Below are positions 3,686-25,074 of a DNA stretch of 64,000 bases, in pieces. The stretch is taken from assembly GCF_000003815.2 (NCBI RefSeq), contig NC_049992.1, positions 19,047,707-19,111,706 of the forward strand. The letters run 5' to 3'. The position numbers and the translations under genes are program-made. This DNA is from Branchiostoma floridae (lineage: Eukaryota; Chordata; Leptocardii; Amphioxiformes; Branchiostomatidae). How positions within the stretch are numbered: position 1 is the first letter of the stretch; every line of letters begins with the position of its first letter. Below the pieces are notes generated by a model. The model saw only the letters and a list, made by a program, of their open reading frames with translations. It was not told where the DNA came from and made no database searches.

Positions 3686-6600
3686 TCAACACATACCTAA
3701 CTGGCAAATGAACGCCTTACTGCGGCTGCACGGTTCATCATTCCAGAAGAGCACATATGCACCAACTTCGGCGCAGTCTTCGCCTCCTTCAGACAAATCG
3801 TTCGGCTCACCCGACTTCCAGTTGGTATAGCCGGATGATTCCAGGATTTGGCCGTCTGCAAATACCCATCGACCTTCAGTGTTGGCGTCAGTCAATCCAA
3901 TCCAGCGCGGTTCGTTTGTTCCTCCCAGCTCGGGTATGAAAGTGTTGGTCGCGCAGTCCTTCGGCATGGCCAACAACCCTCCATCTGCGACGCACGCCTG
4001 TCTAGCATCACAATACGTCTTCCTTTCAGCAAAGTACTTGTAGCAGACACCATTAAAGCTGACGTAGTTTGCTTTTGGACACACTAATATAGAAGAAATG
4101 GGAAACTAGGTAAGGTGTCTGAAGGACAAGTGATTATGTTATTCATCAACAAACTTTGAGTGTTTGAAAAATGAATGATGTCATTGTACGTAGTAGAGTT
4201 TAAATCAGGTGACCATGGGTGTAGGTATTACCAGGGATATGGGTGGTGTCCGTAGTAGGCTGACCATCAGTGGAGGAAGTGCCCACCGTAGGTTGACCAT
4301 GGGTGGAGGTGGTGTTCTCTGGAGGATGACCATTGGTGTAAGGAGTGCTGAAAGCAGGTTGATCAGCCTTCATTGTCTGTGAATAGGAGAGATTCCTGAC
4401 TTAGTACAGTACATATGGTGCCAACAATGTCCTCCTAAAATGACATTATGAGTTAAGTACTTTTCCGATGGCTAAGTTAACCCTATTCCGTCGAGGAATT
4501 TTTGTTGCTTGACGGCAGCCGGGTACTTCACCTTACGAACAAGGTAATATAAAGATTTGGCATGTGAAACACGGCAAAAAAACAATACTAGTATACATGT
4601 ATATTAAATATAAAAGAGTTCTACTGATTTCTTACCTAACTAAAATGTTTTCTTAACCCTATTCAGACCGGGGGGGGGGGCTTTTGAGGCCCGCGCCAAC
4701 TTCGAGGTCCTATAACGCCAGAACGCCTTACGCTAAAGCCACCAAATTTGGTGAGTTTTCCTAAAATATTGTTGGCAACAATTTCAAGAAGTTTGACAAA
4801 TTTTCCATTTTTTCGTGTTGCCATGGCAACCGTTTGCTGACAGGCAGTTTTGCCAAAAATCACTATTTTTGGTTCTAACAATGTATTTTTCACATTTATT
4901 TGCTATATTACTGCTATTTTGTTACATAAATAAAATCTTATATTATTAAGCATATCTTTCATAATTATATATGCATAAATTATGCTAATTTGATGACGTC
5001 ATCAGCCCAAAATCCAAGATGGCGGACCGCATGGCCAGATCAAAAATAACAAGCTAATTATCCCTTAAAATTTGTAACTACCTGGTATTTTTTCATCAAA
5101 AACCATCTAAATGAATGAATTTAGTCTATTTCCATTGCCCTTTGTGATTATTTGTTGCAAAAAAAGTAGTTTTAAAAATTCCAGGTGGTGGATATAATAT
5201 GGCGGAGCCTAAATCGTATCTTACATGTGCATAACGTCATTTTATGACGTCATTATGACGTCATCGATGTTGATATTGGCAATACAAGTCGTAAAAAACA
5301 TTATCATTCTGTTATCTGCACTTGTTATTACATTTTTGTAGTATAACTCGAAGTTTTCTGAGAATACCCTTTTTTCATGGGTCCGGCCAATATAATCAAA
5401 TTGATGACGTCATTATTACGTCATTTTACGTCAACGTAACGTCAAACGTCAACTACTTGCTAGATATTATGTCGATATTATGTCCTGAAAATTTGGTGGC
5501 CCTACGGCACGTCGTTCAAGAGTTATAGGACTTAGAAGTGGAGGGCCTCAAAAGCCCCCCCCCCCCGGTCCAGGGATGACCAAAAAAGCCCGGTCTGAAT
5601 AGGGTTAAAGCCCTTACATTAGCTATGAATCGTTCAGTGTCATTGGTCAAGCCTTGATAATGGCCAAACTTCAAAAGCATCAAACAATGGCTTGTTTAGC
5701 AACTTTCCTGTGAGAAAATGTTATTTTTAACCGTTGCCATGGCAAACATTGTAGAAATTTGTCTGATTTTATTTCAAAATGGTTCCAAATATATTCAACA
5801 GGTATTTGTATGATCTAAGTGCAGAGAAATACTCATCAAAATGTGGTTGTGGATTATTAAACCGCATTTGATGACTTGTAATAAGCGATTTTTGTTAGTT
5901 CCATAGATTTGAGTGACGTCACAAAATCACGTGATAATTCCTATAAAGCTAGGCATCTGACATGGTTATCATGCAAAATAATAAAGTAGAAGAATCAACC
6001 TTTTCAAAAAAGTAAGTCACCCTTTGTCCCTTTGTTTGGTACCAAATGGCCATTTTTGGGGACCTGGCCCATGGACTAATAGTATGCTTTGCCTCGTCCG
6101 CTTTTCCTGAAATTATATCGACATTAGCACAGCATCGTTTGTCCCCTTCTCAAAGAAGGCACAGCCTCTTTATTTCTTTTACACGCTATTTTAGTGCCTT
6201 CAAAATTAAATTAAAAGTCAGTATAATAAAAATTGTGGTGGTGGTATACAATCTAGTTCATCAACATTATTTATAATATACAAATACAGATAGGGTACAT
6301 CTCGAAACAAAATAAAGACTGTTGACCTACCTTTTGAACTTCCCGAGCATTGTTGCTAAAATAAAGCCAGGTTCCGAAAATGATCAATGCTGCCAACAAG
6401 GTAGTTATTATCACGGCAAAGCCAATCCTGCCATAAGTGCAATCTGAAAATACATATGATGGAAACGTCTCTCTGAAAATGAAGCACGTATTCAGGCTAC
6501 ATATATTACAGATAATAAGTTGTGCATTCTTATATAATGTAGCATGACTTCTAAGTTTGTATTTAGCTTTGTTGGTATTAAAGCCAGTCAGCCATTAAGA

Positions 6601-7712
6601 ACTGTTGTACAATGTACTTATGTACTTCATCGAAACTTCAGCCAATACTTTTACACTTTTTCTACGGAAACATAATTTCAAACGTTTCTTGACATCCAAA
6701 ATAGGAAGATAATATTTGAAAATAGGTATTTGAAACAAATAGCCTTTATCTATTTTTAGATGCAAGATGATCACATACATTTGTGCTCAAATTGAACAAC
6801 TAGTTTATATGTGGAATATCATTATTTTTCACTTTGATCAGATATTGCTCCAACACCGCAATAAATGTAATCAGTAACTTAACTCTTAAAGAGCACAAAG
6901 TGCATTTATTATGTTTCCTTTTGATAAGGTTACATGAAAATATATCTGAACCTAAACAGATAAATAAACTTACGGCGACGTGCTTGTTGCGGTACGTTTG
7001 GCACGTACATCGGATTCCTGTTCAGGGCGTCTCGTATGGAGTTCGGATCTGGGCTTGGCATATGTCTGTTTTCATGTATGTCATTGTTATCATTTCCAGG
7101 AACCACGTTGTCACCATTACGTTCAGTTAAGTTGCATTCTAACGATGGGTTTGGGAATCCATATGCGACGGCATAAGGCATTTCAGGGTCTAGATTGGCA
7201 TCATTGTCTGTGATATCGACTTCGTCAGGAATCTCAGAATAAATGTCGTCTTTGTTTGTTTCATTGTTACCATTATCGTCGTTGTTTTTTGTGTATCCTG
7301 AATTTTGCGGTGAGGTTGGATTACTGTTCGATTTCGAAGCCTCCGTGTCACTCTGACAAATGCTTTCAGCGTCAGCTTTAGCGCTTGTTGTGTCAAGCAT
7401 ATGATTCCCCTCATCATTCTCATTATACTCGATGGATACTTCTTTTCCTGAGTGACTGGCGTTAGTCGGTCTCTCATCTGTATTTTGAAGTTCAGGTTTG
7501 GTAGTGCTATCTTGAACAGGAACCGAGCTGTCAGTATCATTCTCAGGGCTGCATCTTGTTTCGTACGTCGGATTCGGGAACACGTTTGTAACAACATAAG
7601 ACCGATCTTTCTGTATTTCGGCATCTGAACGAATTTGCGTCAAACCACCTTCGGAAACACCGTTTGTGTGGACTGTTGGTACAGCATCAGTGGTGATGTT
7701 GTCTTCAGCCAT
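3686..7712 (-). CDS. Gene A: type II transmembrane C-type lectin (4 exons, about 464 aa)
   Basis: Exons on the minus strand are 7712-6974, 6443-6331, 4376-4232 and 4083-3686. All junctions are GT/AG and the phases (1, 0, 1) fit. Residues 1-246 are an acidic, Asn/Asp-rich cytoplasmic tail with NPxY-type motifs (NPTY 47-50, NPMY 233-236) and a YSEI sorting-type motif (158-161). Residues 253-275 form one TM helix. Residues 285-332 are a Thr/Pro-rich stalk. Residues 334-464 are a C-type lectin domain with WIGL (393-396), EPN (425-427) and WND (446-448) plus the expected cysteines. In this family EPN with WND usually means Ca2+-dependent mannose/glucose-type binding. A strong donor-like AG|GTATGT at 3697-3691 leaves open a further 3' exon instead of the TGA used here. 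Start: the ATG at 7712, in frame with the rest. Ligand and role are unknown; a surface lectin receptor is inferred. Confidence 0.85.
4653..5608 (+). mobile_element. TTAA-flanked MITE, copy 2, in intron 2 of gene A
   Basis: The termini are TTAACCCTATTCAGACCGGG and its inverted partner ending CCGGTCTGAATAGGGTTAA, with TTAA at both edges, 956 bp in all. G and C runs, CCATGGCAAC, CAAGATGGCGGA and repeated TGACGTCA follow in the same order as in copies 1, 3 and 4. There is no ORF of transposase size. It sits between the stalk and TM exons of the lectin gene. Confidence 0.85.
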
Positions 7713-8480
7713 GATTACTTCCCACCCTGGATATACATGTAGTTGTAAAAATGCTTATCCTTACCATCATAGTGTCGTATGTACTCTACCTCCCTCCGTC
7801 CCTCCCATATCATATTTCAGTGATTACCCTTTATGTCATAGACAACCAGTTATATAGTGGACATGTTCTTTATTAAAGGACAGCATCAGAAAATCCTCAA
7901 ATCATTATTTTCCAGTAGTTTACTCATTAAAAAGTTGATGTACGTCAATTTTTACATTGATCCGCCTAATATGACCCTGTAGACACGTTTGAACTTCGCG
8001 CTCTCCTCCTCTCTTCCGCCGCGCTGGGCCATGACGTAATGGCCCCGTGCTGATCGTCTGACGTCACGGATCGGAAACTTCTGGCCAGCCATTTTGCTCG
8101 GTGAACCTCGATCCTTTCAGCGGTAAATAATCACTCCACCATTCTGGAGTTTAGTCCGCTGTTGTTGACAATTACCTTCGTGGACCTGTAAGTCGCGTTG
8201 TGAGCTGTCTACGAAGCCATAGTCCCCGGAAGACTGAACATGAATGAGCTTGCCTGCGAGTAAACCGCGCGGCGACGGAACGAAATCAAAACAATGGTGG
8301 TGGGGGAGGTTCACGCACCGTGCCATTCTGGACTGTTACAGGAGCGAGTTCGAGTCAGTTCTTACCTTCTCCTTTCCGGATAGCACATCGATAATTACAC
8401 GTAATCTTCCACGAATTAGGGTTGAATTTACAGTTGTCCAACTAACATTGACTTTAAACAAAACCGAGTTTTCGTGACAT
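7713..8480 (-). promoter_or_regulatory. Possible promoter / 5' UTR region upstream of gene A
   Basis: Between 7980 and 8330 the sequence is unusually GC-rich for this window and holds TGACGTAA (about 8032) and TGACGTCA (about 8060), which match the CRE/ATF site. A minus-strand donor CGAAG|GTAATT lies at 8180-8170 and a plus-strand donor CCT|GTAAGT near 8186-8192. It could therefore hold a noncoding first exon of gene A or of a divergent transcript. I cannot decide the orientation, and TGACGTCA also occurs inside the local MITEs. Confidence 0.3.
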
Positions 8481-11200
8481 TTTTCCTCTGACAACATACC
8501 CTTGATATATGGTAAAAAAAGTTCAACCAGAAAGGTTGTCTTCATAATTGTCAGGGAGGTTGTGCACACACAGTACTGCGTACACAAAAAAAACGGTACA
8601 CCAAATAATAAATGATTGATTTTGTTCTTTCACAACGTTTTTGACTTGAAATAGACGTTTGCATCCAATGATCATATTATACGTTTTCCGATATTTTCTC
8701 TTCAATCTTCGGCGTATTCTTTTGCTTACATTGCGGATGTCTTGTAACATCTATTATCATAATACCGGTACGTTTACGACGATTTCTCTAGCCATACTGA
8801 TTTGACAAATTGTCAACGCATCATTTTCTCCAGTTACATGTTGCTGTTATAGGTTACCCTTGCCACTTCTTCTATGTAACTTTTCTGCCACTCTTGTCCT
8901 GCTAAAAGCGTAATATTGTAATTGTAACACGCCGCGGAATTACACGGCGAACGGGCGCGCGTGGTTGGGAGGGGGTAAAAATACCGGTAGGAAGAAACAC
9001 GGCACAATTAACTGTCGTTATGTACCTTTATACATCCCCTGATGTTCCTTCGGAGTTCCTTTTCTGTTCGTAAATGCATAAAACATGAGCATACAAATGT
9101 CATGAGAAAACGGACGTATACTGTCAAGAATTTTCATTTAACTTCTGTCCGTCACAACCGCTATGACGTAACACTTCACTGCTAGCGTAGACATAAAAAT
9201 GGCGGGAAAATGGCATGCGTACGTTCAATTTTGTCCATTCAGTCATAGATCCGGGCTATTATGCAACGGTTCTTCACACTTTTACACGAGTTGTAGGTCA
9301 CCAACAGACATTCAAGATTGTTGTTTAATCATCTTCGTCTTGTGCCGTGAGCATGTGTAATTATGATCTATAAATTTGGCAATGAACGTGACGGTGTGTT
9401 CGTCCCACGACGAGCTGCCTACCTCGAAAAAGATACTGAAAACTTTTGGCCTTGTTGTCTTCGAATGCATTGTTATCGATGCTTTGTAAATGATGTATTG
9501 GACACCTAGATGTCTGAAGTGTGCACAGCTCAGAAATAACTATTGTTGCATGTGTAGATCTCATTAAGTTCCAGTATTTTTAATCTACCGGTATAAGTCT
9601 TACTACCGGTATTATGCCAATGCATGTTACTATTTACAGTATGGTTGAAAAATTTGTTTTGGAAACAGCCGAAAATGGATGTGGGCATGCACAGTTTTTT
9701 CATCAGCATCAGACAAACAACACGTCAAGTTCCTAAATATTTATCATATATTTGCGTTACGTCAGCGAAGTTCAAGTCAATATCCCTGGCGCCATTGTGA
9801 TTTCAAACATTGAAATATTTGCCTTCTTTTCATACATTTTTTGCTGTGTTATAGTATACGGGTTTGATTAATAATTTCTAAACTTGTTACTTGTAACCGT
9901 AGCTAACTAGGGAGTCGTGCGATATTTGATAGAACAAGTTGAATGCCAACATACTGTCTATTCCCTAAAATCCCCCTGCAAATGAAAATAAAAAAGTGCA
10001 AAATGCCATTGAACTCTTGCATAGAAACAACCTTACTTCAGACTCATCACAATATTGCATCGTATATTTGTGAGTCTTCTAGATCGAAGGTGGGTGGCTC
10101 TCCGATAGTACAATAAGAATGGTTCAAAAAAGTTATTGTGTGAGCGTAGAAAAAGGCACTTGCAAAGCCTGTTTAAGAATTGATATAATAAGTGCACAAG
10201 TTGCTTAGTGACAGTTCAGTAAAGTCTATAAGACTAGCGCACAGTCTGGTAGGTTGTACCCCGAGTTTATCATGGTTAAGAGTAACAACACAATTTAGCG
10301 TGGTGTGGAAGTCAGACAGAGATAAAATGTGTTTCACATTGGGGTTTGGTGCCTTTATACTAGAGGATGTTGTTTTTGTTATTTAGGATAATGTTACTTT
10401 TATCAAAAAGAGTATATACAGTAGTTTACCTTCGGTTAGAATAAAATGAAGCATACACATATAGATATTGTATATCGCCAGGGGAAGCTTCATTATTACT
10501 ATAATCGATGATAATAGTATAGGTTATTCATGCATGAAAGAATAAAGTGGAATGTTCAGTGAGCATTATATCAAGGACTCAATGCAATATACGAAGTTAC
10601 CTGTCTGCGAAAGAACTTGTAAATTCCTTCACGTTATATACGGTAGACGAACCCAATTCTATTTCAAACTGTACCTTCTATAATGAAAAAAGGGAGCGTT
10701 TTAAAGATGCCACCAAATTCCACCCTAATGTCCCTACGTTTACAGACAAAAAGAAAACTACCCTCCTCTTAACACCACAAAACCCATACATTGAAAATGT
10801 GGGGTCCTTCGTCTTCTGCTGTCTCCGAAAAAGAAATCAAACCCAATAGCTAAGTTTTTGCTTTCTTTTGTTTATTTGAATTAATCGCTATAATAAGTCG
10901 TTTATTATTGTATACCGTTTACCATTGTTTGCCATTTTTGTCACTTTGGCAAGAACATGCAATAAACTTTCATTATTAGTCCAAAACTGGCCCATCGGTA
11001 TGTGATGCAAAATATTTAGCTAGAAACGTAGCTGTATATGTAATAAGTAAATGATATTTTTTAGCAAAAGAATGGCTACAGTCAGGCGTTCACAAGGAAT
11101 GATTTTTATTACATTGTAACTGATAACTAGATATTCCTGTAAGCACAGAATGACATATCTAAAACAGAATATGGGCTCGCTGCAAAAAATAAAAGGTCGA
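8481..11200. other. Intergenic with diverged duplicated blocks
   Basis: No exon, RNA gene or intact mobile element is visible. The block around 10110-10560 (GTGTGAGCGTAGAAAAAGGC, then TTGCTTAGTGACAG and TTTAGCGTGGTGT, then CGCCAGGGGAAGCTTC) is repeated in diverged form at about 13565-13960. Old tandem duplication therefore extends upstream of gene A. Confidence 0.45.
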
Positions 11201-11224
11201 GACAACCCCAAGTGAGAACGAAGT

Positions 11225-11400
11225 CATTAGACATTTTGTACTCACCGGATGGCTTCTACGACTCACCGTCATCTCACTTTATCCGGACTCAAACGTCAAC
11301 GACAGGACTGCGACAGAGTTCACTTCTGATGTCAATTTACTGTAAAAAGACTCAAAACAAACCATTTTTGGGGCCCTAGTATTGTACCTCCATAGCAGCC
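11225..11400 (-). other. First-exon-like module, copy 1
   Basis: The minus strand carries CG|GTGAGTAC at 11246-11239, preceded by a conserved block (CTTCTACGACTC, then TTTATCCGGACTC, then CAGAGTTCACTTCTGAT). The same block with a donor recurs at about 12.2, 19.1 and 26.0 kb and, degraded, at 22.0 kb. In the last duplicated unit it lies upstream of gene C, so I read it as a noncoding 5' exon plus flank. Confidence 0.4.
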
Positions 11401-12189
11401 TCTCTGGGGCCTTTTCCGGTCTTTTCTTGGCTCATAATACACTTTTCCTGGCCATTTCTTTTGTGTAGAAAATATACAAATCACAAGCTCATACACTTAT
11501 TTAAAGCTTGATTTTGTCCTCAACAGGAAGGTATTCCTTAGCCAAAAAACGTCTAAAATTTACAAATATCCCTTCAGTCCTAAACCCATCATTTGCACTT
11601 CACTGTCCCCAAAGACCCTACATAAACTCTATGCATGATTCCTGGATCAAATGTATAATGTTATATGCCTGTGAGATCTGGGACAAGGTTTGTTATTCAA
11701 AAGACAATTGTCCTGTCAAAATAACTCAAAACCTTTTTTTCTTGGTAAAAACAACCGGGGTGTGCACAGGAATTCATGTAACTATGCATGCAGGACAGAG
11801 CTTGGGATGTTCCCAACAGATATAAATTTTAGATATATCCGTCCGTGTAACAATTAAAAAAATACTGGCTAAGACTTAAACAGCTGGACAACTCCGCACA
11901 TTGTCAAGAATTCAATTTGGGATATGGTGAACAAAAAAATCTGGATACACCGTATCAAAGAAATAGTAGGTAGACTATTATTTCTTACAACCAACTACCC
12001 TACATTAGACAATAAGAATATATGATTGTATATTGTTAAAGAGAAGAGTGATATGTATTTTCAATTATTCTTTCATCAATTGTCCGCAGATAATGGTAAG
12101 CCAGGATTTTACAAAAAAATACCAAAGCCGAATACTCCTCTTAGACCTTGAGACTGTACATGCAATTAGCCGTCGGGCATAATTTTGCA

Positions 12190-12420
12190 AAATAGTTAGA
12201 CAGTTTATACTCACCAGAGGTCTTCTATGATGGTGGCTCACAGTCCTCGCTTTATCAGGACTTAGACCTAAGTGACACGACTGTGATATTTAGTTCTCGG
12301 TAGACAGAGTTCGTTTCTGATATCGGTTGACTGTAATGAATTATTCAAGACACAGGACGAACCATTTGCAGGTGCATAAAATCGGATGTAGATGCATTGA
12401 TGTCATCGCCTGTTGGTATG
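12190..12420 (-). other. First-exon-like module, copy 2
   Basis: It has the same layout as the 11.2-kb copy: a minus-strand donor CTG|GTGAGTATA ending the block at 12215, then CAGAGTTCGTTTCTGAT and GAATTATTCAAGAC upstream. There is no ORF. It is probably a leftover 5' exon from a duplicated receptor gene. Confidence 0.4.
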
Positions 12421-13289
12421 TTGTAAGTATAGTGAACAAAGTGCTTGTTTTTACAAATATGTACTTCAATATGAAACAATTGTTATCGTTTACAGTAAAA
12501 AATGCACCTGTGGTTTATACATTCCTTGTTACTAAAAGCATGAACTTGCCCTGGCACGTTTCCCAACAACATCAGACAAATGAAACGGCAGACTCCTGAA
12601 TAAACATCAATACACCCACCGAGTCACGCAAGGTTTCTTTATCGCAATTGCGGCTTTAGAAAAACTGGATCAAATGCCTTGGTTTATTTTTCTTAGTCGT
12701 TTCCTGATAATGGTTTTGTATTAGTTACACGATTAGTAACTTAACCACGTCGGCATTAGGCAAGTACGAGTTTGACAACATTATATCTCCCAAGTCCCAT
12801 TTTTTTTCAAAATCCCTCTGCTCGTTGAAAAAAAAAACATGTGAAATGTCACTTAACTCTTACATAAAGGCAAACGCAGCCATGCCCGAGACTCATCGTG
12901 GTATTCTTCGTGTATTTATATATGTTTACCTCCCAACACGAGGTGGGTATTTTTTTCTTGTACAATTCAAAAAAGTTCTAAAATGATGGTGTGCAAACGT
13001 TAAAAAAATGCTGCACATCATTAATGGGGAACTGCAAGAAAGAATAAATAAGAAAAACGTTTTTGGAGTAACAAAAATCTAGTTTACTAATGATTCCAAG
13101 TGCACAGGCTGCTCGGTGATAATGGCTTTTCAGCAATGACAACACGTGCACAGTCTGATAGATTCCAACTAATGATATTATAGTAAACTTAAACATCACG
13201 ACTCATTATAGATTGCTTTTTGCTATCAGATGCACTCCCTCCACACTGTATATTGAAATGTGTAATTGTTAAGAATAACGTTTGCTTTT
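12421..13289. other. Intergenic, no gene seen
   Basis: AT-rich sequence with short homopolymer runs. I find no exon, inverted-repeat element or RNA gene here. Confidence 0.35.
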
Positions 13290-13515
13290 ACAAGAAGTAT
13301 GGCGATGACACATGGTATCTAAGATACGCATGACGTCATTTTATGACGTCATTTGACGTCATTGATGTTGCTATGGGCAACACATGTCGTAACAAACATT
13401 GTATTTCTGTTATATGCACTTGCTGCTACCTTTTTGTAGCATACCTTAAAGTTTTCTGGGAATACCATTTTAGGGTTCCAGTCAATACAATAGAAATTAT
13501 GACGGCATGAATTGT
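13290..13515 (+). mobile_element. Fragment of the TTAA MITE family
   Basis: ATGACGTCATTTTATGACGTC, then TTGATGTTGCTATGGGCAAC and AGTTTTCTGGGAATACC, align with the right half of copies 2-4. Both termini are missing, so this is a truncated relic. Confidence 0.6.
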
Positions 13516-13544
13516 GAGCACCTGTACACGATTTAAAAAAAAAT

Positions 13545-13960
13545 ACCAGACAAACAACACGTCAGTGTGTGAACGTAGAAAAAGGATCACTTGATAAGTG
13601 CAAAAATTGCTTAGTGACAGAGGGTAGTTCGGTAATAACTATAAGAACGATGTCTACTAAGTAGTACCTCAAGTTTGTTATGGTTGAGAGTTACAACACA
13701 AATTAGCGTGGTGTAAAAGTTACACAAGGATAGAATGTGTTTCACTTTCAGGTTTGTAGGCTTTAAAATAAAGGATGCTGTTTGTGTTTTTGTTGAGGAT
13801 GATGTAAGTTGTATCAGGAGTTTTTCTTATTTGTATCTATTAACTAAATGAAGCATACTGCAGCACATATATTGCTTGTCGCCAGGGGAAGCTTCGTTGC
13901 TAGTCAGAGATAGTATAGATTGTCCATGAAAGAATTAAAAGAGAATGTTCAGTGCTTATG
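13545..13960. repeat. Diverged duplicate of the 10.1-10.6 kb block
   Basis: GTGTGAACGTAGAAAAAGG, then TTGCTTAGTGACAG, TTAGCGTGGTGT and CGCCAGGGGAAGCTTCG appear in the same order as at 10140-10500. This indicates an old tandem duplication with about 3.4 kb spacing. Confidence 0.5.
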
Positions 13961-13961
13961 T

Positions 13962-14024: not shown

Positions 14025-14134
14025 GTCTGTTGAGAGCCGGTTACCATGGCAACTGAAAAAAGAGGAATTTTTGTCAAACAATTTACAATTGTTGGCAAAT
14101 GAATTTTAGCAAAAGTCACTAAATTTGGTGGCTC
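14025..14134 (-). mobile_element. Left part of an older TTAA MITE, split by copy 3
   Basis: Read on the minus strand, this segment and 15098-15183 together match the 5' end of copies 2 and 3 (CCATGGCAAC, then ACCAAATTTGGTG-type sequence). The break between the two parts falls exactly where copy 3 is inserted with TTAA on each side. Confidence 0.75.
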
Positions 14135-15097
14135 TTAACCCTATTCAGCCTGGGGGGGGGGGGGGGGCCTTTGAAGGCCCGGAGCAACTTCGATGTCCTA
14201 TAACGCCAGAACGGCTTACGCTAGAGCCACCAAATTTGGTGAGTTTTTCTAAAATATTGTTGGCAAAAAATTTACAAAGTTTGACAAATTTTCCATTTTT
14301 TCGTGTTGCCATGGCAACCGTTTGTTGACAGGCTGTTTTGCCAAAAATCACTATTTTGGGTTCTAACAATGTATTTTTCATATTTATTTGTTATATTACT
14401 GCTATTTTGTAACATAAATAAAATCTTATATTATTTAGCATATCTTTCATAATTATATATACATAAATTATGCTAATTTGATGACGTCATCAGCCCAAAA
14501 TCCAAGATGGCGGACCGTATGGCAAGATCAAGAATAACAAGCTAATTATCCCTCAGAATTTGTAACTACCTGGTATTTTTCATCAAAAACCATCTAAATG
14601 AATGAAATTAGTCTATTTCCATTGCCCTTTGTGATTATTTGTTGCAAAAAAAGGATTTTTAAAAATTCAAGGTGGTGGATATAATATGGCGGAGCCCAAC
14701 TCGTATCTTAGATGTGCATGACGTCATTTTGTGGCGTCATTTTGACGTTATCGATGTTGCTATTGGCAACACAAGTCGTAATAAACATTATTATTCTGTT
14801 ATCTGCACTTGTTGTTACATTTTTTTAGCATAACATGAAGTTTTCTGAGAAAAACCCTTTTTTCATGGGTCCGGCCAATATAATCAAATTGATGACGTCA
14901 TAATTACGTCATCTTACGTCAACGTAACGTCAAACGTCAAACACTTGTCAGATATTATGTCGATATTATGTCCTGAAAATTTAGTGGCCCTACGGCACGT
15001 CGTTTTAGAGTTATAGGACTTAGAAATGGAGGGCCTCAAAAGCCCCCCTCCCCCCGGTCCATTGATGACCAAAAAAGCCCGGTCTGAATAGGGTTAA
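14135..15097 (+). mobile_element. TTAA-flanked MITE, copy 3, nested in an older copy
   Basis: The termini are TTAACCCTATTCAGCC and GGTCTGAATAGGGTTAA, 963 bp apart, and the interior is close to copy 2 throughout. The left and right flanks (14025-14134 and 15098-15183) rejoin into one inverted, older copy of the same family once this insert and one TTAA are removed. This supports a TTAA target-site duplication. Confidence 0.88.
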
Positions 15098-15183: not shown

Positions 15184-15606
15184 AACACTTGATTGGATCA
15201 TACTCCTACGCAGCTGTTAGACTACTACATATTTGATCATAGTGTAGTAACAGACTGTACATATTCTTAAGGTTCCCCAGTATTTACAGAAATGTACTGC
15301 ATGTATCTGTCTTGTCTAACTGTTCAACTACCCAAGTACTGCATGTTAAGTTACACATGTAATTCGTCCAAACACACCAATGTATGTTGTCCCTCCATGT
15401 GCAATAGTACTCGACTGTACAAACTCTAGTCATAGTGGTTGACAAATGTACTGTTGTTGTTGTTTTTAAGAAAAAAGAAAAAAATCCTCCTACGCAGGGA
15501 CATCCAACAGGGAAACCGCCTGTCTGTATGTACGCTGCTCTTTCAACCATCGCCCTTAGTTCCTGACCGCCCTGCTTATAAATATTAATGAGCTCAGTTT
15601 TGTATA

Positions 15607-15685
15607 CATGAATGAATGAATGAATGAATGAATGAATGAATGAATGAATGAATGAATGAATGAATGAATGAATGAATGAATGAAT
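15607..15685. repeat. GAAT microsatellite
   Basis: About 19 nearly perfect tandem TGAA units. Confidence 0.95.
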
Positions 15686-16194
15686 CTTTCTAGATAAACC
15701 TTTAGTTATTACTTTGTAACTTTTGTTGGGTTTATTTTCACAGATATTTTAAAAATCTTAAATTCTTTAACCATTTTTGGAGATCATTCTCGTGGTTATG
15801 GTTTACATTATATGTATCATGGGGCGTATGTACAATTGCCGTTTAAAAAGAATCCCTTGAATGGTGCCAGACGATTTTTGAGAGAAACATCCTGTTAATA
15901 TTGGCATAACATCTTTTTTTATTGTGCACAGAGAACATCTCATCTTATTGGGCGTCACTTTTGACCCGCCTAAAACAAAATTTTTCGACCACATTGTTAA
16001 TCGTACAAATCAACTATTAAAGGGTTCCATACATGCTGAAAATATGAAAATAAAATCAAAAGATGGATGCTTATGAGGAAGAATCCTAAATTTAAAGTAC
16101 ACTATTTCTTTTCATAAGACAATTATTTCCCATCTTCTCTTCAGTTTTGACTTTTCCGGAGGAAGTCATTTATATGATTTAATCAACAGATGTC
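15686..16194. other. Downstream flank of gene B, no gene seen
   Basis: Nothing coding is visible. From about 16140 the sequence (CTTTTCCGGAGGAAGTCA) is duplicated at 22224-22242 downstream of gene C. This marks the left part of the tandem-duplicated unit. Confidence 0.5.
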
Positions 16195-18119
16195 TTACAG
16201 GGAAATCCAGTCATTAGGGGTACAGTACCAATACCCTGTCAGGAGTTGAAACAAAAAATTATCCCCGCACGTTTCAAGTTTCTTGTCATTCTTCTCTCTG
16301 TAGTTGACACAGTCAGGGCAGTCACAGTGGTCAGTCGAGCCACCGCACCAGTTTCCATCGGAGCAACATGGGGTTACACCGCCAGGATCACATTCAGCAG
16401 GGTTACCATCATCTGCAGGGTAACCCTGGCCGCAACGCCAGTCGTCTCGCCACTTCTTAGGAGCTATTGGATGAAGTGTTTATTCCGTCATCATTTCCAA
16501 AATTAGAATTCCACGATCTCATACTTAGAAAATATGAATTGATTGGCCAAAATATATTGACCTTTTTGACTGATGAATCCTAAAGAATATTTGTGATTAA
16601 TAATACAATTATGATCCTTATTCGCAATGAATTATATAACTTCTGTGGTATCCCGTAGTGTCTTGAAATCTTTTACAAGGTGACTATGCTGTCAAAGGCC
16701 TTCTCATAGTCTATGAAGTGTGCATATGCGATCTTAAATAATGAGTTGATTGTTTATGAGTTGATCATCCAATTCTAATTAGTATGAAGTTATTTTTAGC
16801 CTTCGTTTCCTTAGCTAGGCCAGGTTACATCAAGATTTTAGCAAAATAGTCCAGATTAAACCGCCTGAAAACTACAAAAACAATTAATCGGAGCCTAACC
16901 TCTGCCTGGAGAGTTGTCCACGGCAGGCTGACCAATGGCGTAGGTAGTGTCCACTGCATGATGACCGGGGATGAAGGTAGTGTCTTCAACAGAAGTATCG
17001 ATGCTGTAGGTAATGTTCGCAGCAAGCTGACCATGGGTGTAGGTAGAGTCCAAAGCAGGCTGAACAGCGTTGGATGTATTATAAACAGCCTCCATTCTCT
17101 GAAAATAGGAGATATTCTAGCTTTAATATAGGGCTTATACAGTGAACAGAACTGCCGACGAATGTAAATACGTACGGCACTTTTAATTATGTAACATGAT
17201 GTACAATCAACAATGCCTTCCTTAACATGTTTACAAGACACAAAGGCACACACGTAGGCTACATCCCGAAACGGAATGAAGACCATTTCTTACCTTTTGA
17301 GCGTCTCGAACATTGTTGTGGAAATGAATCCAGGTTCCAAAACCAACCGATGCCGCCAACAAGGTTGTTACTATCACGGCAACGCTCAGCCTTCTATAAG
17401 TGCACTCTGGAAATGCATATTATGGAAACGTCAAGGTGTTGGTGTTAATGACCCATGTATATAGCCTACATGTATTACAGATATTCTTGAGAAGAGGGAA
17501 TATAAAAGCCATTTTCCATGTAGCGCGACTCCTGTATGTGTATATACTTTTGTTTGTTGGTACGACATTATTACAAACAGTTACTACTAAAGCTAAAAAA
17601 AACATTGACATTCATTAAACTTAAGTCAAAACTATTACACTTCTTACAAAAAATGATAAAAAATTACTAAACAACAAAAAATGATACACATACATATACA
17701 ACTTTTAATGATATGTTTAACGTATTGAAAGTGATGACCATGAACTAGTTAATGCAAGACCATTGATATATCTGGAATATCCAAAAAGACTTCCAGTGAA
17801 ACATAAAATAAAACCGAAAACGTACCCGGCTAGCTATAAGGAAACAAGTAGAATTGTCAAAAATTGAGAATGAGTTTTTCTAATTGCAATTTAGCATGAA
17901 ATGCCATATATTTGTTCCTTTTTTTATATATTACTGAAATTAAACACAACTATAAAAAAAAAACTTACGACAACGTGCTTGTTGCGGTACGTTTGGCTTA
18001 AGCTTGTACATCGGATTCCTTTTCAGGCCGTCTCCCCTAGAGCTCGGATCTGTAGTCGGGATTTGTCTGTTTGTGTTGACCGTTGGTACGTCGCCTGGTG
18101 TGATGATGTCTTCAGCTAT
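16195..18119 (-). CDS. Gene B: type II membrane protein with hevein-like domain; start codon changed to ATA
   Basis: Minus-strand exons are 18119-17969, 17406-17294, 17098-16900 and 16463-16195. The junctions are GT/AG with the same phases as genes A and C and sum to 732 nt in frame (about 243 aa). The short tail ends KPNVPQQARC, the TM exon is V-A-V-I-V-T-T-L-L rich, and the stalk has four 11-aa repeats of the DTTYxxGQPAV type. The C-terminal exon carries WRDDWRCGQGYPADDGNPAE, then PCCSDGNWCGG and HCDCPDC, a Cys pattern like hevein chitin-binding domains. The codon aligned with gene C's ATG is ATA, and an in-frame stop lies three codons upstream. The gene is therefore either a start-loss pseudogene, starts at the later Met in NPMY, or takes its start from another exon. 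Everything else is intact. Confidence 0.65.
16500..16640. repeat. Fragment of the ATGCAAAT-rich repeat family (left end)
   Basis: TTAGAATTCCACGATCTCATAC matches the terminus found at 2575 and 22733. Only the first part of the element is present. Confidence 0.4.
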
Positions 18120-18539
18120 GTTTATCTATCAACCTGTATGCGTATGACATTTCATAATTCCTAGTTCAAACATGCAGTCGCGATGGATTATGGTCGCTGA
18201 ACTTTTACTTTAACCCCATGTAGACCATAAAGAACGTTCCCAACGACAACGCTGCGCTCTTTCTGCGGAGGTACCCCTCTCTTAAAAATAAAGACTTTTT
18301 GCACGTCACTTGCTTTGATTTCAACGACTTTTCAGTGACCGTCTGTCACCTTCCCCAGTAGAATTCCGACTGGTTTATATTGTACTGCAGCTATAGGCCT
18401 CTCTGTTTACAGAATTCGGTCACAAACGTTAAGTATTTTCATCATTAAAATGGTTGTTTATGCTTTATTCAGTGACGTACTAACCAGATGAAACTACAAA
18501 GTCAAACCACGTATGCCTCTCTATTCTTCTACACATATG

Positions 18540-18625
18540 CATCAGGCGTAAGACATCTGTACTCACAGCAAGGCGTCTGTGGGGGCGACTCGTAGCAGAC
18601 GTCTTCTTCGCCTTGAAATTAGTCT
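18540..18625 (-). other. Possible second 5' exon of gene B
   Basis: The minus strand reads GCT|GTGAGTAC ending an exon-like block at about 18570. The matching position upstream of gene C (about 25528) keeps the same donor. No ORF is evident, so if used it is probably untranslated. Confidence 0.3.
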
Positions 18626-18734
18626 CAGCTGCAAAACAATTCAATATTCAGTTCTCAGCAGAAAGGTGTAAACCGATCACAATCGCTTATAGATATGGCA
18701 GTATTTCAACAAATAATATATGAGGGAAATTATC

Positions 18735-18995
18735 AATAACTAGAGTTCGGCGACCTCATATCTCAACGGAATATTTAGAGCTTTTATAGATGTTATGCAA
18801 ATGAAATGCACATTTACATGATTTATGCATGGTGGTGTTGATCATTGATTACCTTACACATGTAACAAGTACATTTATAAATATAAATCCTATAATTTAT
18901 CATTATGCGATTTTGCCACTTTATACAAATTTATCTATACACCATAGTTGCATTGTGAGATGTGGATAAAATGGCAGGCTCGCTAATGTTTATGC
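18735..18995. repeat. Fragment of the ATGCAAAT-rich repeat family
   Basis: It starts AACTAGAGTTCGGCGACCTC, the terminus shared with the copies at 36.0 and 41.2 kb, and loses similarity after about 250 bp. A matching fragment at about 25678 shows that it predates the B/C duplication. Confidence 0.55.
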
Positions 18996-19099
18996 ATGGT
19001 AACGTCATATGTTTACGCGTTGGTAAAATACATGAGAGCAATCACGGCAAAGTTCATCACCACAGTTTAGCAAACGAATTGGTTTAAGTTCGGCGTGCT

Positions 19100-19335
19100 C
19101 AATCAAGTAAACAATTAGACAGACTATACTCACCACAACTTCTATTGTGGTGACAAAAGCTTTGACTGGACTCCAAGCAAAATGTAGATAAGACTGCGAT
19201 ATTTGTTCCTGGGTAGACAGATTTATTTTGTTTCATTCCCAGTGTCAGTTGACTGAAATGAATTATTCAAGATTCAGGACGAACGATTTCGTGGATGCCA
19301 AACATCGACTGTAGATGCAAAAAAGTTGAGACCTC
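19100..19335 (-). other. First-exon-like module, copy 3 (upstream of gene B)
   Basis: A minus-strand donor TG|GTGAGTATA sits at 19134-19127, preceded by the conserved block with TGGGTAGACAGATTTATTTTG and GAATTATTCAAGATTCAGG. The block is nearly the same at 26.0 kb upstream of gene C, which suggests a shared promoter-proximal untranslated exon. Confidence 0.45.
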
Positions 19336-19639
19336 TTGTTAGCATAAATGGAATTAAGTAAATAGAGTTCTTGTCTTTACATAGATGTACCACATTACCA
19401 GACACATTTAATTGTGTTAAAATAAAAAGTGTACATATGGCGTATACAGACCCCTGTTGTTAACAAATACCTCAATAGATTTTTCCTGGCATTTATGAAT
19501 AAACATTAGACATGTCAGACAATGAAACATCGGGTTCCTGAATCGTTATCATAAAACCGCGTTGCGTAAGTTAAAGTCTAATATCGACGTAACCATTGGG
19601 ATTTTAAACATTGAAGAAAATAAAATTGAAGACGAATAA

Positions 19640-19850
19640 ATCTTTACTTCTGGATACTTTATTTTTTTACAGACGTTTCGGAAGGCATCCGCCTTCCTTC
19701 CTCAGTGAAAAGAAAATGAAGACGATTTTTTATATATATATATATATATTTTTTTTTTTACTTCTGGATACTTTATTTTTATACAGACGTTTCGGAAGGC
19801 ATCCGCCTTCCTTCCTCAGTGAAAAGAAAATGAAGAAAATAGTTTGATGT
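19640..19850. repeat. Two direct copies of a roughly 90-bp unit
   Basis: ACTTCTGGATACTTTATTTT, then CAGACGTTTCGGAAGG and CCTTCCTCAGTGAAAAG, occur at 19640-19729 and again at 19758-19847. They are separated by a short (TA)n/T-run. A third copy is not seen. It looks like a SINE- or MITE-derived unit duplicated in tandem. Confidence 0.8.
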
Positions 19851-19859
19851 TTCTCGAGC

Positions 19860-20468
19860 GTTTCCCAATGTGTCATAATGTACAGGTTTGTTGGTCAGTA
19901 CCTGAACTTGTGAGTTGACCCTTAGTAAGTAGGTAAATGAACAATATTTAATCTCGCAAGCCTTATGTCAAAATGCTTACTTTCATAAAAATTAGTCTCC
20001 TCATACAGTAGAAAAACAAAAGTGCGAAATGTCAAGCCTTTCCTCAGACGTATCACAAGATTGCTTGTCATATTCATGTATCTTTGACTAGCAAAGAAGG
20101 TTGTTGGTGAGCAAGGAGGCTCATCTGTATTTGTAGTAATCATAGCACTATGCTAAACTTTCTTCCAACAAAAATGTATACATACACGCTTTAAAACGCT
20201 CACTGAAATTTAACGTTAGATTTCTTGCATATAGAAACGCTGTCCTCTCTTAGTACATCCACATTGAATCACATGTAAATGAGGTAACAATTGAATTGAG
20301 CGCTTTTAGCCCCTTTGTAACGCTTTTATTTCATAGTTTATATGTCAACACACTATACGTAAATGTATGCAAAGCAAGAGGTCAGAGTTCAACTGTCAAA
20401 CTACTCTAAAAATCGATGAGTTAAATTCTTTGTCGCTTTCTTTGTTTTCAAACATCGGCGCAAACATA

Positions 20469-20531
<63 letters not shown>

Positions 20532-21100
20532 AATACTAGTATATATATCAGAGTTACCACAGCATTACTTCTCATATTCATATATCTTTGGCTAGCAAAA
20601 GAAGGTGGCTATATATAAAATAGTTTCATCTCAGCCGCTTCCTGATGTAAATAGGTTCAGTGGTCAGCATCCGAACCTGTTGGTTGGACATACTTAAGTA
20701 CGGATTCGTGCAATATCTCCCAAGTTCTATATCTAGATTGTACTACCTTCTTTTCCCAAAAACTAATCTGCAGCTGTCTGTAAAAAAAACACGATGGCAA
20801 AACATCGTCGAGCTTTTACAAAATACCAAAGGTCATCTTACTTCAGACAATAACAAACAAAAATTGCTTCTCATATTCATATATCTTTGTCTAGCAAAAG
20901 AATGTGGGTGGCTCTTTTCTTGCAAAGTACACAATAGTTTTAAAGAAATGGCAGTGTGTAAAAGCGACACATTAGTGTCAACTGGAAAAGCGAGCTACGG
21001 AAAGTTGTGACTCTAAAGTTTGCATCTGTTTCTCCACAAAAATAAAAAAATACATCATTTCACATAGGTGAATGTGCAAAAAATTTAATTGACTTAAGTT
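19860..21100. other. Upstream part of the duplicated B unit
   Basis: Blocks at 19850-20160 and 20640-21100 are repeated in diverged form at about 26530-26830 and 27110-27560. This extends the B/C duplication well beyond the exons. There are no further exons. A TA microsatellite at 20467-20527 accounts for the only long plus/minus ORFs here. Confidence 0.6.
20467..20527. repeat. TA microsatellite
   Basis: About 30 uninterrupted TA dinucleotides. Confidence 0.95.
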
Positions 21101-21934
21101 TTTAGCCCCCTTTTAGGGCTAATATTTCAGAGATCATGACAAGACACTATGTATATGCATTTTCAACTTTTGAATTGCTGTAAAAATTGATAAGTTAATA
21201 GGCGTAAGTTACATTGTTGTTAAGACAACATCTCTAAAATTATGTAATATTTGAAATGTATATATAACATGACCATCAAGTCTCTATTCAAAATGCTAGA
21301 CTATTACTTAGAGACTGATTAGACCTATTTTCAAGCACCGCAAACTGTTTTATCATGATTCTATTTCAAATCCCCCTTAGAAATAGCGCGTGTCGGGTAA
21401 AATTGACATGGCTACCTTATTGCACAACTTCAGCTTGTACGGAGTCTTACATACATTTGTGATACTAATAGGAACAGAGGCATGTAGACACAAGTCTCTT
21501 CTTTTTCCAATTCTGAAAGTGTTTCATGGCAAAAAAAATATCAGTATAAAGATAAATGTCAGTCGCAGCCAATCCCTCCCAATGGCATATTATTTTTTAC
21601 GCACGTTCGAAAACGAATGCATCAGACGTAATGTTGACGACTACCGTAACGATTGATACTCTTGGACTGCCACATTTCAAACATCTATATTGGTAATCCC
21701 AGTGTTATGTGCACTTCAGATATTCACGTCGCTCGTGAGAAAGCCTTTTTTACAACATTTTTTATATTGCAATCTTAAGGTACCTAGGGAAACTACTAGA
21801 ACTTGAGATAGACCATAATCTACAAATGGCTCAATCCTAGGATCCTAAACGATGTTGTGTAGTTAGTTTGAAAAACAGTTGTTTATGTCAGTTATCAGTG
21901 ATGATTTCAGTTGGGCGTTCTCATGACTATACAT

Positions 21935-22165
21935 TTAATGGTCAGTGAGTGACATCTATATCTCCCAGTCGTTTTAGCTTTCTCAGGAATAAGACCTTAA
22001 AGACACAACTACAATATTTAGTTCTGGGTCGACAGAGTTCGTGCCTGGCGTTAGATGACTCATGACGTAAACTATTAAGACTCAAGACGAACCATATTGT
22101 GGGTGCCAAACATCGAATGTAGATGCATAAACTTGTGATCGTTTGTAACGTGTAACAATAAATGA
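21935..22165 (-). other. Degraded first-exon-like module, copy 4
   Basis: It shares TAGTTCTGGGTCGACAGAGTT, AAGACTCAAGACGAACCAT and CATCGAATGTAGATGCA with the other copies, but the GTGAGT donor is lost. It lies between genes B and C with no other exons of its own, probably the relic of a deleted gene copy. Confidence 0.4.
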
Positions 22166-22471
22166 AGTACTTGCCTAAACAAATGTGGGCTTTATTATCA
22201 CACAACTACTCATCAGTTTTTACTTTTCCGGAGGACGTCAGTTATATAATTGAATCCGAGTATGCCTTACAGGGTCAATTAGTGGTAGAGTAAACTATAG
22301 ACACGAATTCCCTGTCAATATTGCCCAAAGACTTTTCGTCCCGCATTCTTTTTTCTTGCTCCTCTTCTTTCTGTAGTTCACAAAGCAACAGCGATTTCGA
22401 CAAAACCTCGACGGCCTATCGCCCAGAATAAACTTGGACAAGGACATCTGGCCAATTAGGGGTACAGAAAA

Positions 22472-25074
22472 CTATCGACATGTCAAGATTCCCAAAAAGC
22501 TATTCACAATGCATTCTTTTTTCTTGTAGTCAACACAGCTGCGGCAGTTACAATGGTACACCGAGCTACCGCACCAGTTTAACCCGGAGCAGCATGGGGC
22601 TACACCGTCAGGGTCACATTCAGCAGGGTTACCGTCATCTGCAGGGTAACGTTGGCCGCAGCGGAAGTCGTCTCGCCACTTCTTCTTAGGATCTATTGGA
22701 TGAAAGGTTTATTCCGTCACTACTTACAAAATTAGAGTTCCACGACCTCATACCTTTGCCAAAATATATTGACCTTTTTAACTGACGTGTCATTAATGGT
22801 TTCTGTGATTATACTAGTAGGATCCTCATTGGCAGGAATTATAAATTGATCATGTTATCATTTATTTCTAATAAAGGGTTAATGCCCCGCCCCGAGGTGT
22901 ATATGGTGCGATAACCACCGAATAAACCACCGAGTGAGCGTAGCGAACGAGGTGGTTTATGAGGTGGTTATCGCACCTGACCAGGGATTATCTCACCATA
23001 TACACCGAGGATAAGGCGGGGCATTAACGTTATTATCATATAGCCTATCCAACTGACAGTTATTTCACACAAATTCCTTTATAACAAATAAACACTTTAA
23101 TACATTACATAAAAATACATTTGCAACATCATCATCATTTAACTAATAATTTTAACTAATCATCTGTTTGTGAGATAGCATATCAGCATCAACATGTGGC
23201 TTATTTGCAATACAAACTACATGTATTAAGTAGAGTCCTGGTACCCCCCATGCAGAGCCTTTTCACTTGGGCACGACAAAGTACGTATATATGAAGTGAT
23301 TTAGGAAGGTACCGGCTTAATCACGTTAGAAAGCCATAATGAAAATGTGTAAAATCAGCATAATTCCTTTTCAAGTATCCCTATATTCCCCATGTGGAGC
23401 CCTAATTAACATAACCAATCAATCATAATTTTTTTGACAGTTATGCATGGTTTACACAAACAACAGTACAAAAAAAATTCATGACTGTCCCCTGTATAAT
23501 GGTGCGGTCCAAAAAGTGGTCGGTTATTAGAATAACCGACCACTTTTGAGGTTACTGCCTGATAACCCATGGGAAATGGGGGCCTCTGATTGGCCAACTC
23601 CATCTGGCTATATGATAATGTTGTTTAAAGTATAAAAGTCAGATCTTAACCTACAAAGTTATTGTTACCCTGGAGTCCAGCCTTGTTAGGCCGGTAGACA
23701 TAAAGATTTCAGTACACAATAGAAAGCCCGATAAAAACGCCTGACAAAATGTCAAAAAAGCCGGAGCCTAACCTCTGCTTGGAGAGTCGTCCGCAGCAGG
23801 CTGACCATTGGCGTAGGTAGTGTCCACTGCAGGATGACCAGGGATGTAGGTAGTGTCCGCAACAGGCTGACCATGGGTGTAGGTAGTGTCCGCAACAGGG
23901 GTATCAATGCTGTAGGTGTTGTCCACAGCAGACTGACCATGGGTGTAGATGGTGTCCACAGCAGGCCTACCATGGGTGTATGTAGTGTCCACAGTAGGCT
24001 GACCATTGGTGTAGGTAGAGTCCAAAGCAGGCTGACCAGGGTTGGATGTATTATAAACAGCCTCCCCTGTCTGCAGATAGGAGAGACTATAGTTTATATA
24101 GCCCTTACAGTAAACGATGAATGTAAATACGGACGGCCCTTTTTATTATGTAAGATGATGTACGATCAACAATGCCCTCCTCAACATGTTTACAAGACAC
24201 AAAGACATACACATAACATACATCCCGAACGGAATGAAGACCGTTTTCTTACCTTTTGATGAACGTCTCGAACATTGTTGTGGAAATGGACCCAGGTTCC
24301 AAAACCACTCGATGTCGCCAACAGGACAGTTACTATCACGGCAACGCTAAGCCTTCTATACGTGCACTCTGAAAATACATACGATTGGAACGTCAATGTG
24401 TTGGTGTTAATGACCCAAGTATCTAGGTTACATGTATTACAGATATTCTTGAGAAGAGGGAATATAAAAGCCATTTTCCATGTAGCACGACTCCTGTATG
24501 TGTCTATACTTTTGTTTGTTGGTACGACATTATTACAAACAGTTACTAAGCTCGAAAAAATATCATTGACATTCATTAAACTTAAGTCAAAACTATTACA
24601 CTTCTTACAAAAAATGATAAAAAATTACTAAACAACAAAAAATGATACACATACATATACAACTTTTAATAATACGTTTAACGTATGGAAAGTGATGACC
24701 ATGAACTAGTTAATGCAAGACCATTGATATTTCTGGAATATCCAAAAGACTTCCAGTGAAACATAAAATAAAACCGAAAACGTACGCGGCTATAAGGAAA
24801 CAAGTAGAATTGTCAAAAATTGAGAATGAGTTTTTTAATTGCAATTTAGCATGAAATGCCATATATTTGTTCCTTTTTTAATATATTACTGAAATTAAAC
24901 ACAACTATAAAAAAAAAACTTACGACAACGTGCTTGTTGAGGTACGTTTGGCTTAAGCTTGTACATCGGTTTCCTTTTCAGGCCGTCTCGCCTAGAGCTC
25001 GGATCTGTAGTCGGGATATGTCTGTTTGTGTCGACCGTTGGTACGTCGTCTGGTGTGATGATGTCTTCAGCCAT
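22472..25074 (-). CDS. Gene C: type II membrane protein, 11-aa-repeat stalk, hevein-like C-terminal domain (4 exons, 261 aa)
   Basis: Minus-strand exons are 25074-24924, 24368-24253, 24070-23773 and 22692-22472. The splice sites are GT/AG in phases 1, 0, 1 and the sum is 786 nt with a terminal TAG. Residues 1-50 are the cytoplasmic tail (start MAEDIITPDD, end KPNVPQQARC). Residues 57-79 are the TM helix. Residues 90-188 are a stalk of about seven 11-residue repeats (DTTYTHGQPAV type), rich in Thr and likely O-glycosylated. Residues 194-243 are a Cys-rich domain: FRCGQRYPADDGNPAECDPD, then PCCSGLNWCG, HCNC and CVDY. The C-x6-CCS-x3-WCG-x5-C spacing resembles hevein-type chitin-binding domains; the assignment is by pattern only. 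Tail and TM are homologous to gene A, but the ectodomain is not. Function is unknown; a carbohydrate-binding surface receptor is inferred. Confidence 0.82.
22725..22830. repeat. Fragment of the ATGCAAAT-rich repeat family
   Basis: TTAGAGTTCCACGACCTCAT followed by ACCTTTGCCAAA matches the left terminus of the 2.57-kb copy. It lies just inside intron 3 of gene C and corresponds to the fragment at 16500 in gene B. Confidence 0.5.
22878..23028. mobile_element. Small palindromic element (151 bp) in intron 3 of gene C
   Basis: The ends are GTTAATGCCCCGCC and its inverse GGCGGGGCATTAAC. Inside are GGTGTATATGGTG / CACCATATACACC and a second nested inverted pair, GGTGCGATAACCACC / GGTGGTTATCGCACC. 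The whole element could fold into one long hairpin. It has no counterpart in intron 3 of gene B. Confidence 0.7.
23029..23632. mobile_element. TIR element (about 600 bp) in intron 3 of gene C
   Basis: The left end ATTATCATATAGCC and the right end GGCTATATGATAAT are inverted. It is absent from gene B, where intron 3 is 436 bp instead of 1,080 bp. It contains the near-perfect hairpin at 23512-23547. There is no ORF. It may form one composite element with the 151-bp palindrome to its left. Confidence 0.6.
23512..23547. repeat. Perfect 17-bp inverted repeat with 2-base loop
   Basis: AAAAGTGGTCGGTTATT is followed by AG and then its exact reverse complement. Confidence 0.95.
23660..23790 (-). repeat. 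Repeat-derived sequence at the exon 3 donor of gene C
   Basis: On the minus strand ACTCTCCAAGCAGAG|GTTAG, then GCTC, spans the last codons of the stalk exon and its donor. A 24-bp exact match lies on the plus strand at about 62026-62049, far from any receptor gene, so this stretch looks like part of a dispersed repeat. Gene B shares it with one difference; gene A does not. Confidence 0.45.

Follow-up and report, generated by a model that had tools for sequence, protein, structure and literature searches.

A tandem family of predicted type II membrane receptors in the lancelet Branchiostoma floridae combines one scaffold with C-type lectin or hevein-like heads

The vertebrate receptors DC-SIGN/CD209, langerin, and CLEC10A are type II membrane proteins in which a cytoplasmic N-terminus is followed by a stalk and a C-terminal lectin domain. 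In lancelets, a hevein-like chitin-binding domain stands N-terminally to the PGRP domain in the proteins BbtPGRP1-3. The N-terminal domain of PGRP3, which is represented by the structures 4Z8I and 4ZXM, is described as having a hevein-like fold with four disulfides and as binding chitin beads (PMC4610682). The chitin contacts reported for this domain are S51, W53, W55, and H62, and the binding was abolished in the double mutant W53A/W55A (PMC4610682). According to the same paper, the fusion of a chitin-binding domain with PGRP is known solely from amphioxus (PMC4610682).

Lancelets are also described as having the fastest exon shuffling and the fastest gain of domain combinations known in metazoans, with new domain pairs arising at a rate above ten per million years and a bias toward the phase combination 1-1, and as having a fast turnover of immune receptors, including those of the C-type lectin (CTL) class (Huang et al. 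2014, PMC4284660). B. floridae is cited as the eukaryote richest in novel domain combinations (PMC12373286). In B. belcheri, the phagocytic receptor FrLRR, the locus of which was ascribed to exon shuffling, is reported to bind bacteria and to promote phagocytosis (PMC10199209).

Here, we describe three neighboring genes, A, B, and C, from a window of 64,000 nucleotides of the B. floridae genome (assembly GCF_000003815.2, contig NC_049992.1, positions 19,047,707 to 19,111,706 of the forward strand). All of them are carried by the minus strand and consist of four exons each, A spanning 7712-3686, B 18119-16195, and C 25074-22472; the stop codon of A ends at 3686 and the ATG of C sits at 25074. 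The exon joins were predicted from the sequence, and on the reverse complement, where the splice sites were placed, all the modelled donors are GT and all the acceptors AG. The predicted proteins have 464 residues in the case of A, 261 in the case of C, and 243 in the case of B if it is read from an ATA codon. The features of the three genes are as follows:

6974..7712, minus strand: gene A exon 1, N-terminal tail of 246 residues with an ATG start, two NPxY motifs, the end PNVPQQARR, and a phase-1 donor
6331..6443, minus strand: gene A exon 2 (113 nt), transmembrane segment, from hydropathy and the DNA match to B/C including the intron flanks
4232..4376, minus strand: gene A exon 3, stalk of 33-nt repeats with a phase-1 donor within the IPG unit
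3686..4083, minus strand: gene A exon 4, C-type lectin domain (PF00059, E=2.4e-16) with EPN and WND, and the stop codon
17969..18119, minus strand: gene B exon 1, short tail with ATA replacing ATG and the end PNVPQQARC
17294..17406, minus strand: gene B exon 2 (113 nt), transmembrane segment
16900..17098, minus strand: gene B exon 3, stalk repeats
16195..16463, minus strand: gene B exon 4, hevein-like chitin-binding-type domain, C-terminal extension, and stop codon
24924..25074, minus strand: gene C exon 1, short tail with an ATG start
24253..24368, minus strand: gene C exon 2 (116 nt), transmembrane segment
23773..24070, minus strand: gene C exon 3, stalk with the longest array of 33-nt repeats
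22472..22692, minus strand: gene C exon 4, hevein-like chitin-binding-type domain and stop codon
12190..12380, minus strand: putative 5' non-coding first exon of A, ending in GGTGAGT, with a second copy at 11225-11380
19120..19300, minus strand: putative 5' non-coding first exon of B
26030..26210, minus strand: putative 5' non-coding first exon of C

The exon order and the intron phases 1, 0, and 1 are common to A, B, and C, as the first-pass annotation of this locus had claimed. The transmembrane exons, for which homology and a length of 113-116 nt had been proposed, measure 113 nt in A and B and 116 nt in C, and the A and B exons also match at the DNA level. In a self-comparison of the window's first 32 kb, A and B aligned around this exon and beyond both of its borders, with 73.9% identity over 268 bp (E=2e-40); a second match, of 79.3% over 116 bp (E=1.7e-22), lies where the tail exon ends. 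The DNA of the A stalk matched that of the C stalk at 70% over 177 bp, and the principal alignment of B with C is 2.76 kb long and 82% identical, with extra blocks flanking it on each side. Weaker matches (E about 1e-6 to 1e-10) connect A with B/C in the start regions and 5' flanks, and each gene is preceded by a block that resembles a first non-coding exon and ends in GGTGAGT, A having two such copies. The sharing of sequence between A and B/C is not due to chance. As the DNA homology extends into the introns and 5' flanks, we conclude that the three genes are tandem duplicates.

The tail of A (246 residues) is longer by 196 residues than those of B and C, which have 50 residues each, and it aligns with them at the first 17 and the last 45 residues. 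The ending PNVPQQAR, already pointed out in the first-pass annotation, is present in all three tails. Outside the heads, no Pfam match above the cut-off was found in the A, B, and C proteins; the matches of A to Chordopox_A33R and Gemini_mov and of B to K1-lyase_N were below the cut-offs and were discarded. It should be noted that one more block resembling the first exon, at 21960-22110, is degenerate, lacks the GGTGAGT end, and has no tail exon match nearby; it is perhaps the remnant of a fourth copy of the gene.

The last exon of A encodes a C-type lectin domain, as had been read from its EPN and WND motifs. It matched Pfam Lectin_C (PF00059) with E=2.4e-16 and 60.8 bits, the gathering cut-off being 22.6, and in the search of PDB its EPN...EDC...WND motifs aligned with the same motifs of the C-type mannose receptor 2. 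The EPN motif is associated with the calcium-dependent binding of glycans of the mannose, fucose, or GlcNAc type, and the A head should, as predicted from these residues, bind such glycans with calcium. The structure of this head predicted from the single sequence had a very low confidence (mean pLDDT 34.7).

The last exons of B and C encode a different domain. The B head matched the chitin-binding domain of amphioxus PGRP3 (PDB 4ZXM and 4Z8I) with E=1.5e-15 and 1.6e-14, and the C head with E=7.4e-16 and 1.1e-15. Identical to the PGRP3 domain were 29 of 53 residues in B and 30 of 53 in C, and all eight cysteines of this domain are kept in both heads, which are 73% identical to each other over 56 residues. 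The CCS-x3-WCG motif is found in both of them, so the Cys-rich end with hevein-like spacing that had been described for B and C holds good. Two further PDB matches of the B head, an RNA polymerase (E 0.66) and an antibody (E 1.1), were taken as chance. The comparison with a chitin-binding profile, proposed earlier as a check of the B/C last exon, gave a divided answer, as the heads proved homologous to the PGRP3 domain but stayed below the Chitin_bind_1 cut-off of 27.8 bits, both when taken alone (7.7 for B and 12.1 for C) and in the whole proteins (13.2 and 9.9, respectively). Since the proven PGRP3 domain, used as a control, scored 24.0 and was likewise under the cut-off, this threshold is not decisive for this branch of the family. 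The AlphaFold2 model of the C head, built from an alignment of two sequences, was of very low confidence (mean pLDDT 41.5).

Three of the four chitin-contact residues (S51, W55, and H62) are kept in B and C, and W53 is replaced by Gly in B and by Leu in C. Chitin binding by these heads is therefore likely but not assured, given that W53 is one of the two residues changed in the PGRP3 mutant that loses binding. Judging by the residues kept, the B and C heads should recognize GlcNAc polymers (chitin or the glycan of peptidoglycan) or a ligand akin to these; the lack of one contact Trp may make this binding weaker. The comparison of the two heads by the NG86 method gave dN 0.162 and dS 0.514 (dN/dS about 0.32), and the excess of dS over dN is a sign of constraint. 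These rates come from a separate codon alignment of the head; a whole-unit global alignment had given values of 0.31-0.50 for exons that reach 0.81 in the separate comparison, and these were rejected as an artefact, since the extra DNA in C misaligned intron 3 and exon 4. The differences between the B and C heads fall on 8 of 19 positions in the sugar-binding core and on 7 of 37 elsewhere, which is not significant (Fisher p=0.11). Meanwhile, the C-terminal extension of B (16122-16312) aligns at 68.6% with DNA lying 3' of the C stop (22194-22385, minus strand), and the last exon of C has apparently acquired an insertion or duplication by which the protein ends earlier.

The main claim of the first-pass annotation, one tail, transmembrane, and stalk scaffold bearing two unrelated sugar-binding-type ectodomains, is thus borne out by the lectin head of A and the PGRP3-like heads of B and C. 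No additional lectin or chitin-binding head was found by tblastn in the rest of the window at E<0.01; beyond this cut-off, the C head gave only matches at chance level (E 0.12-0.42).

The stalk of all three proteins is a Thr-rich repeat of 11 residues (33 nt), present in five units up to the donor in A, six in B, and nine in C, with the partial last units included. The default score of Tandem Repeats Finder reports only the C array, and those of A and B were read by hand. The fifth residue of the unit is usually a Gly encoded by GGT, which gives a GT in phase 1, and such a GT occurs in 4 of 5 units of A, 4 of 6 of B, and 8 of 9 of C (16 of 20 in total). The presumed head donors of A, B, and C are all GGT Gly codons of this kind. 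In A, the donor lies inside the IPG unit, past which the repeat persists for about seven codons and then meets a stop. In B and C, the IPG unit and one more unit are read through and the donor lies in the next one, after SPGR/SPSR.

Every head exon is entered in phase 1 and, being the last exon, has no downstream phase. The earlier claim of an identical stalk-ectodomain boundary in A, B, and C therefore holds for the phase but not for the position, as A uses an earlier repeat unit. This means that no clean swap of heads took place at a single homologous intron boundary. As most of the 33-nt units contain a phase-1 GT, a head exon with a phase-1 acceptor could be joined at several units with the frame kept, and the stalk repeat would in this way supply several in-frame donors and ease the exchange of heads.

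The likeness of B and C is unevenly distributed along the genes. The best-segment test was applied to an alignment of 2581 columns ending at exon 3, and it marked out the following tract:

17467..18545, minus strand: tract of B that is 95.7% identical to C over 1072 columns

In the remaining 1509 columns, the identity of B and C is 82.4%, and none of 2000 column shuffles and none of 2000 block shuffles gave a segment as extreme. The tract runs from the proximal 5' flank through the tail exon and into intron 1, most of which it includes, ending about 60 bp short of the transmembrane exon. The NG86 dS between B and C rises from 0.030 in the tail exon to 0.222 in the transmembrane exon and 0.514 in the head. 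In the tail, dN (0.046) is higher than dS (0.030), the changes being few and without a sign of protein-level constraint. Since dN is not below dS, such constraint does not explain the likeness of the two tails. The tract is a probable product of gene conversion, to judge from this pattern of identity, and constraint acting across most of the 562-bp intron is a less likely cause.

The Kyte-Doolittle hydropathy of the transmembrane segment (19 residues) reaches 2.43 in A and 1.95 and 1.79 in the other two genes. By eye, each protein has a single hydrophobic segment, the N-terminus lacks a signal-peptide-like stretch, and positive charge is commoner on the N-terminal side of the segment. A, B, and C are accordingly predicted to be type II membrane proteins.

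NPxY is a motif of endocytosis and PTB binding. The A tail contains two copies; at least two occurred in 74 of 20,000 shuffled tails and at least one in 1707 of 20,000, so that one NPxY by itself would be unremarkable. Exon 1 of B holds NPMY, which is lost if translation begins at the first in-frame ATG, and C has KPMY at that place and no NPxY in its tail. An ITAM in the A tail was considered and rejected, as the sole Yxx(I/L/V/M) is YSEI at residue 158 with DDI before it. The two NPxY motifs of A would fit endocytosis. Together with the sugar-binding heads, they suggest the uptake of glycan-coated particles, probably microbes, by this filter feeder, and these receptors may have an immune role.

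The window contains several other elements. A repeated element of about 960 bp is present at 4651-5608, inside intron 2 of A, and at 14133-15097, the two copies being 92.5% identical. It has terminal inverted repeats, with AACCCTATTCAGACC at each end of the copy at 4651-5608, and a third copy (42837-43699) is 76% identical. A piece of an interferon-inducible-GTPase-like gene lies at 38010-38297 on the minus strand (Pfam IIGP, 27.2 bits against the cut-off of 24), and the adjoining ORF 37467-37862 had no Pfam match. The plus-strand ORF 50097-53333 belongs to a non-LTR retrotransposon, with endonuclease and reverse transcriptase matches in its first 718 codons; it contains a stretch translated as X and the sequence GDVSPNPGP, which we take to resemble a 2A peptide. 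The ORF 55682-56824 on the minus strand has an RNase H domain and probably derives from a mobile element. Two plus-strand ORFs of the C2H2 zinc-finger type (57094-58684 and 62471-63570) have the look of tandem duplicates, and the zf-C2H2 match is strong in 57094-58002, the portion scanned.

The explanation that we consider probable is that A, B, and C arose by tandem duplication as type II pattern-recognition receptors for sugars and that one lineage of copies acquired a different last exon by exon shuffling. In each of them, a cytoplasmic tail at the N-terminus would be followed by a single transmembrane helix, a stalk of Thr-rich repeats, and a C-terminal sugar-binding head. After the tandem duplication of an ancestral gene, one lineage of copies would have obtained another last exon downstream of the stalk, where the phase-1 GT present in most units would let a new head exon splice in frame. 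The job of such receptors could be to bind microbes or particles in a filter feeder and then to internalize them. A bolder version, which we regard as doubtful, is that the stalk serves as a docking site for new heads, most of its units offering a phase-1 donor, and that gene conversion maintains an alike tail in all copies; the cluster would then belong to a larger germline family in which a single signalling scaffold carries many ectodomains, possibly with splicing between neighbors.

The locus might instead be partly decayed, with only A, or A and C, working and B a pseudogene, which would make the two-head family smaller than it appears. Exon 1 of B opens with ATA, which the first-pass annotation does not mention, in contrast to the ATG of A and C, and in-frame stops lie just 5' of it; its first in-frame ATG was read at codon 37, so B may be dead, may start internally at this codon, or may contain a sequence error. 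The divergence of the B and C gene ends by the insertion or duplication described above and the orphan first-exon-like block at about 21.96-22.11 kb, which has no tail exon near it, also speak for decay. However, the modelled exons of B are open and bounded by GT/AG splice sites, and the low dN relative to dS in the heads points to constraint, which may partly date from before a loss of B or have acted on C alone. On this balance, we think that decay of this extent is unlikely. It is more improbable still that the last exons are separate genes, or are joined to the stalks only in some transcripts, so that splicing between genes, such as from exons 1-3 of C to the lectin exon of A, yields mixed receptors. 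The common strand of the three genes and the phase-1 donors ahead of the heads would permit it, units 3 and 4 of the C stalk (6.62 and 6.42 bits) outscore the presumed donor (5.72) on an approximate matrix that is meaningful for rank order only, and B. belcheri FrLRR was reported as a transcription-mediated fusion gene (PMC10199209). Nevertheless, intron 3 is short in each gene (148 nt in A, 436 in B, and 1080 in C), the join within the gene is the simplest one, and no head exon was found on reading to open with a signal-peptide-like stretch.

The ligands raise another question. C-type lectin and chitin-binding heads can both bind sugars that are also present in hosts and food. The receptors could accordingly serve the animal's own glycans or chitin, in mucus, cuticle, or food particles, and not immunity; nothing in the sequence fixes the source of the ligand. 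Two weak arguments stand against this reading, namely that the nearest solved relative of the B/C heads lies in an innate-immune peptidoglycan amidase (PMC4610682) and that the interferon-inducible-GTPase-like piece is found upstream of C, at a distance of about 13 kb. We give this reading a rather small chance, and the shuffling of heads on a duplicated receptor remains the explanation that we prefer.

In its layout, gene A resembles DC-SIGN/CD209, langerin, and CLEC10A, having a predicted type II topology, a single transmembrane segment, and an EPN lectin head, and these three proteins were among the best 60 of its 161 PDB matches. The lancelet genes differ from the vertebrate type II lectin receptors by the Thr-rich stalk repeat of 11 residues and by having sister genes whose head is of a different fold. 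The heads of B and C are homologous to the domain of BbtPGRP1-3. PGRP3, however, is described with both a signal peptide and an amidase domain. In B and C, which are predicted membrane proteins, the domain stands alone as the head at the C-terminus, and W53 of PGRP3 is replaced in both. FrLRR is built from folate-receptor and LRR domains and is predicted to have a GPI anchor, so that its parts and topology differ from those of A-C. The lancelet survey of Huang et al. (2014) was genome-wide and based on Pfam domains, and the B/C heads score under the Pfam cut-off. The heads of A-C are, moreover, last exons with phase 1 at the entry only, and not internal exons of the 1-1 type.

The pairing of C-type lectin and hevein-like heads on a common type II scaffold was not found among the matches listed from the titles and abstract openings of the open-licence literature. 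The proposal that this is an undescribed system goes too far; it may perhaps hold for the pairing, but exon shuffling and the chitin-binding domain of PGRPs are both known from lancelets. The combination of the two heads on one scaffold may be new in print; the process that generates it is known.

If confirmed, the locus would be a side-by-side and nearly intact case of a receptor scaffold changing its recognition head, readable within about 22 kb from the shared introns, the recurring phase-1 donors in the stalk, and the homogenized tail. Surveys performed at the Pfam gathering cut-off can overlook this type of chitin-binding domain, a proven member of which scores too low. If confirmed, these results would also extend a domain published in lancelet PGRPs to a membrane receptor.
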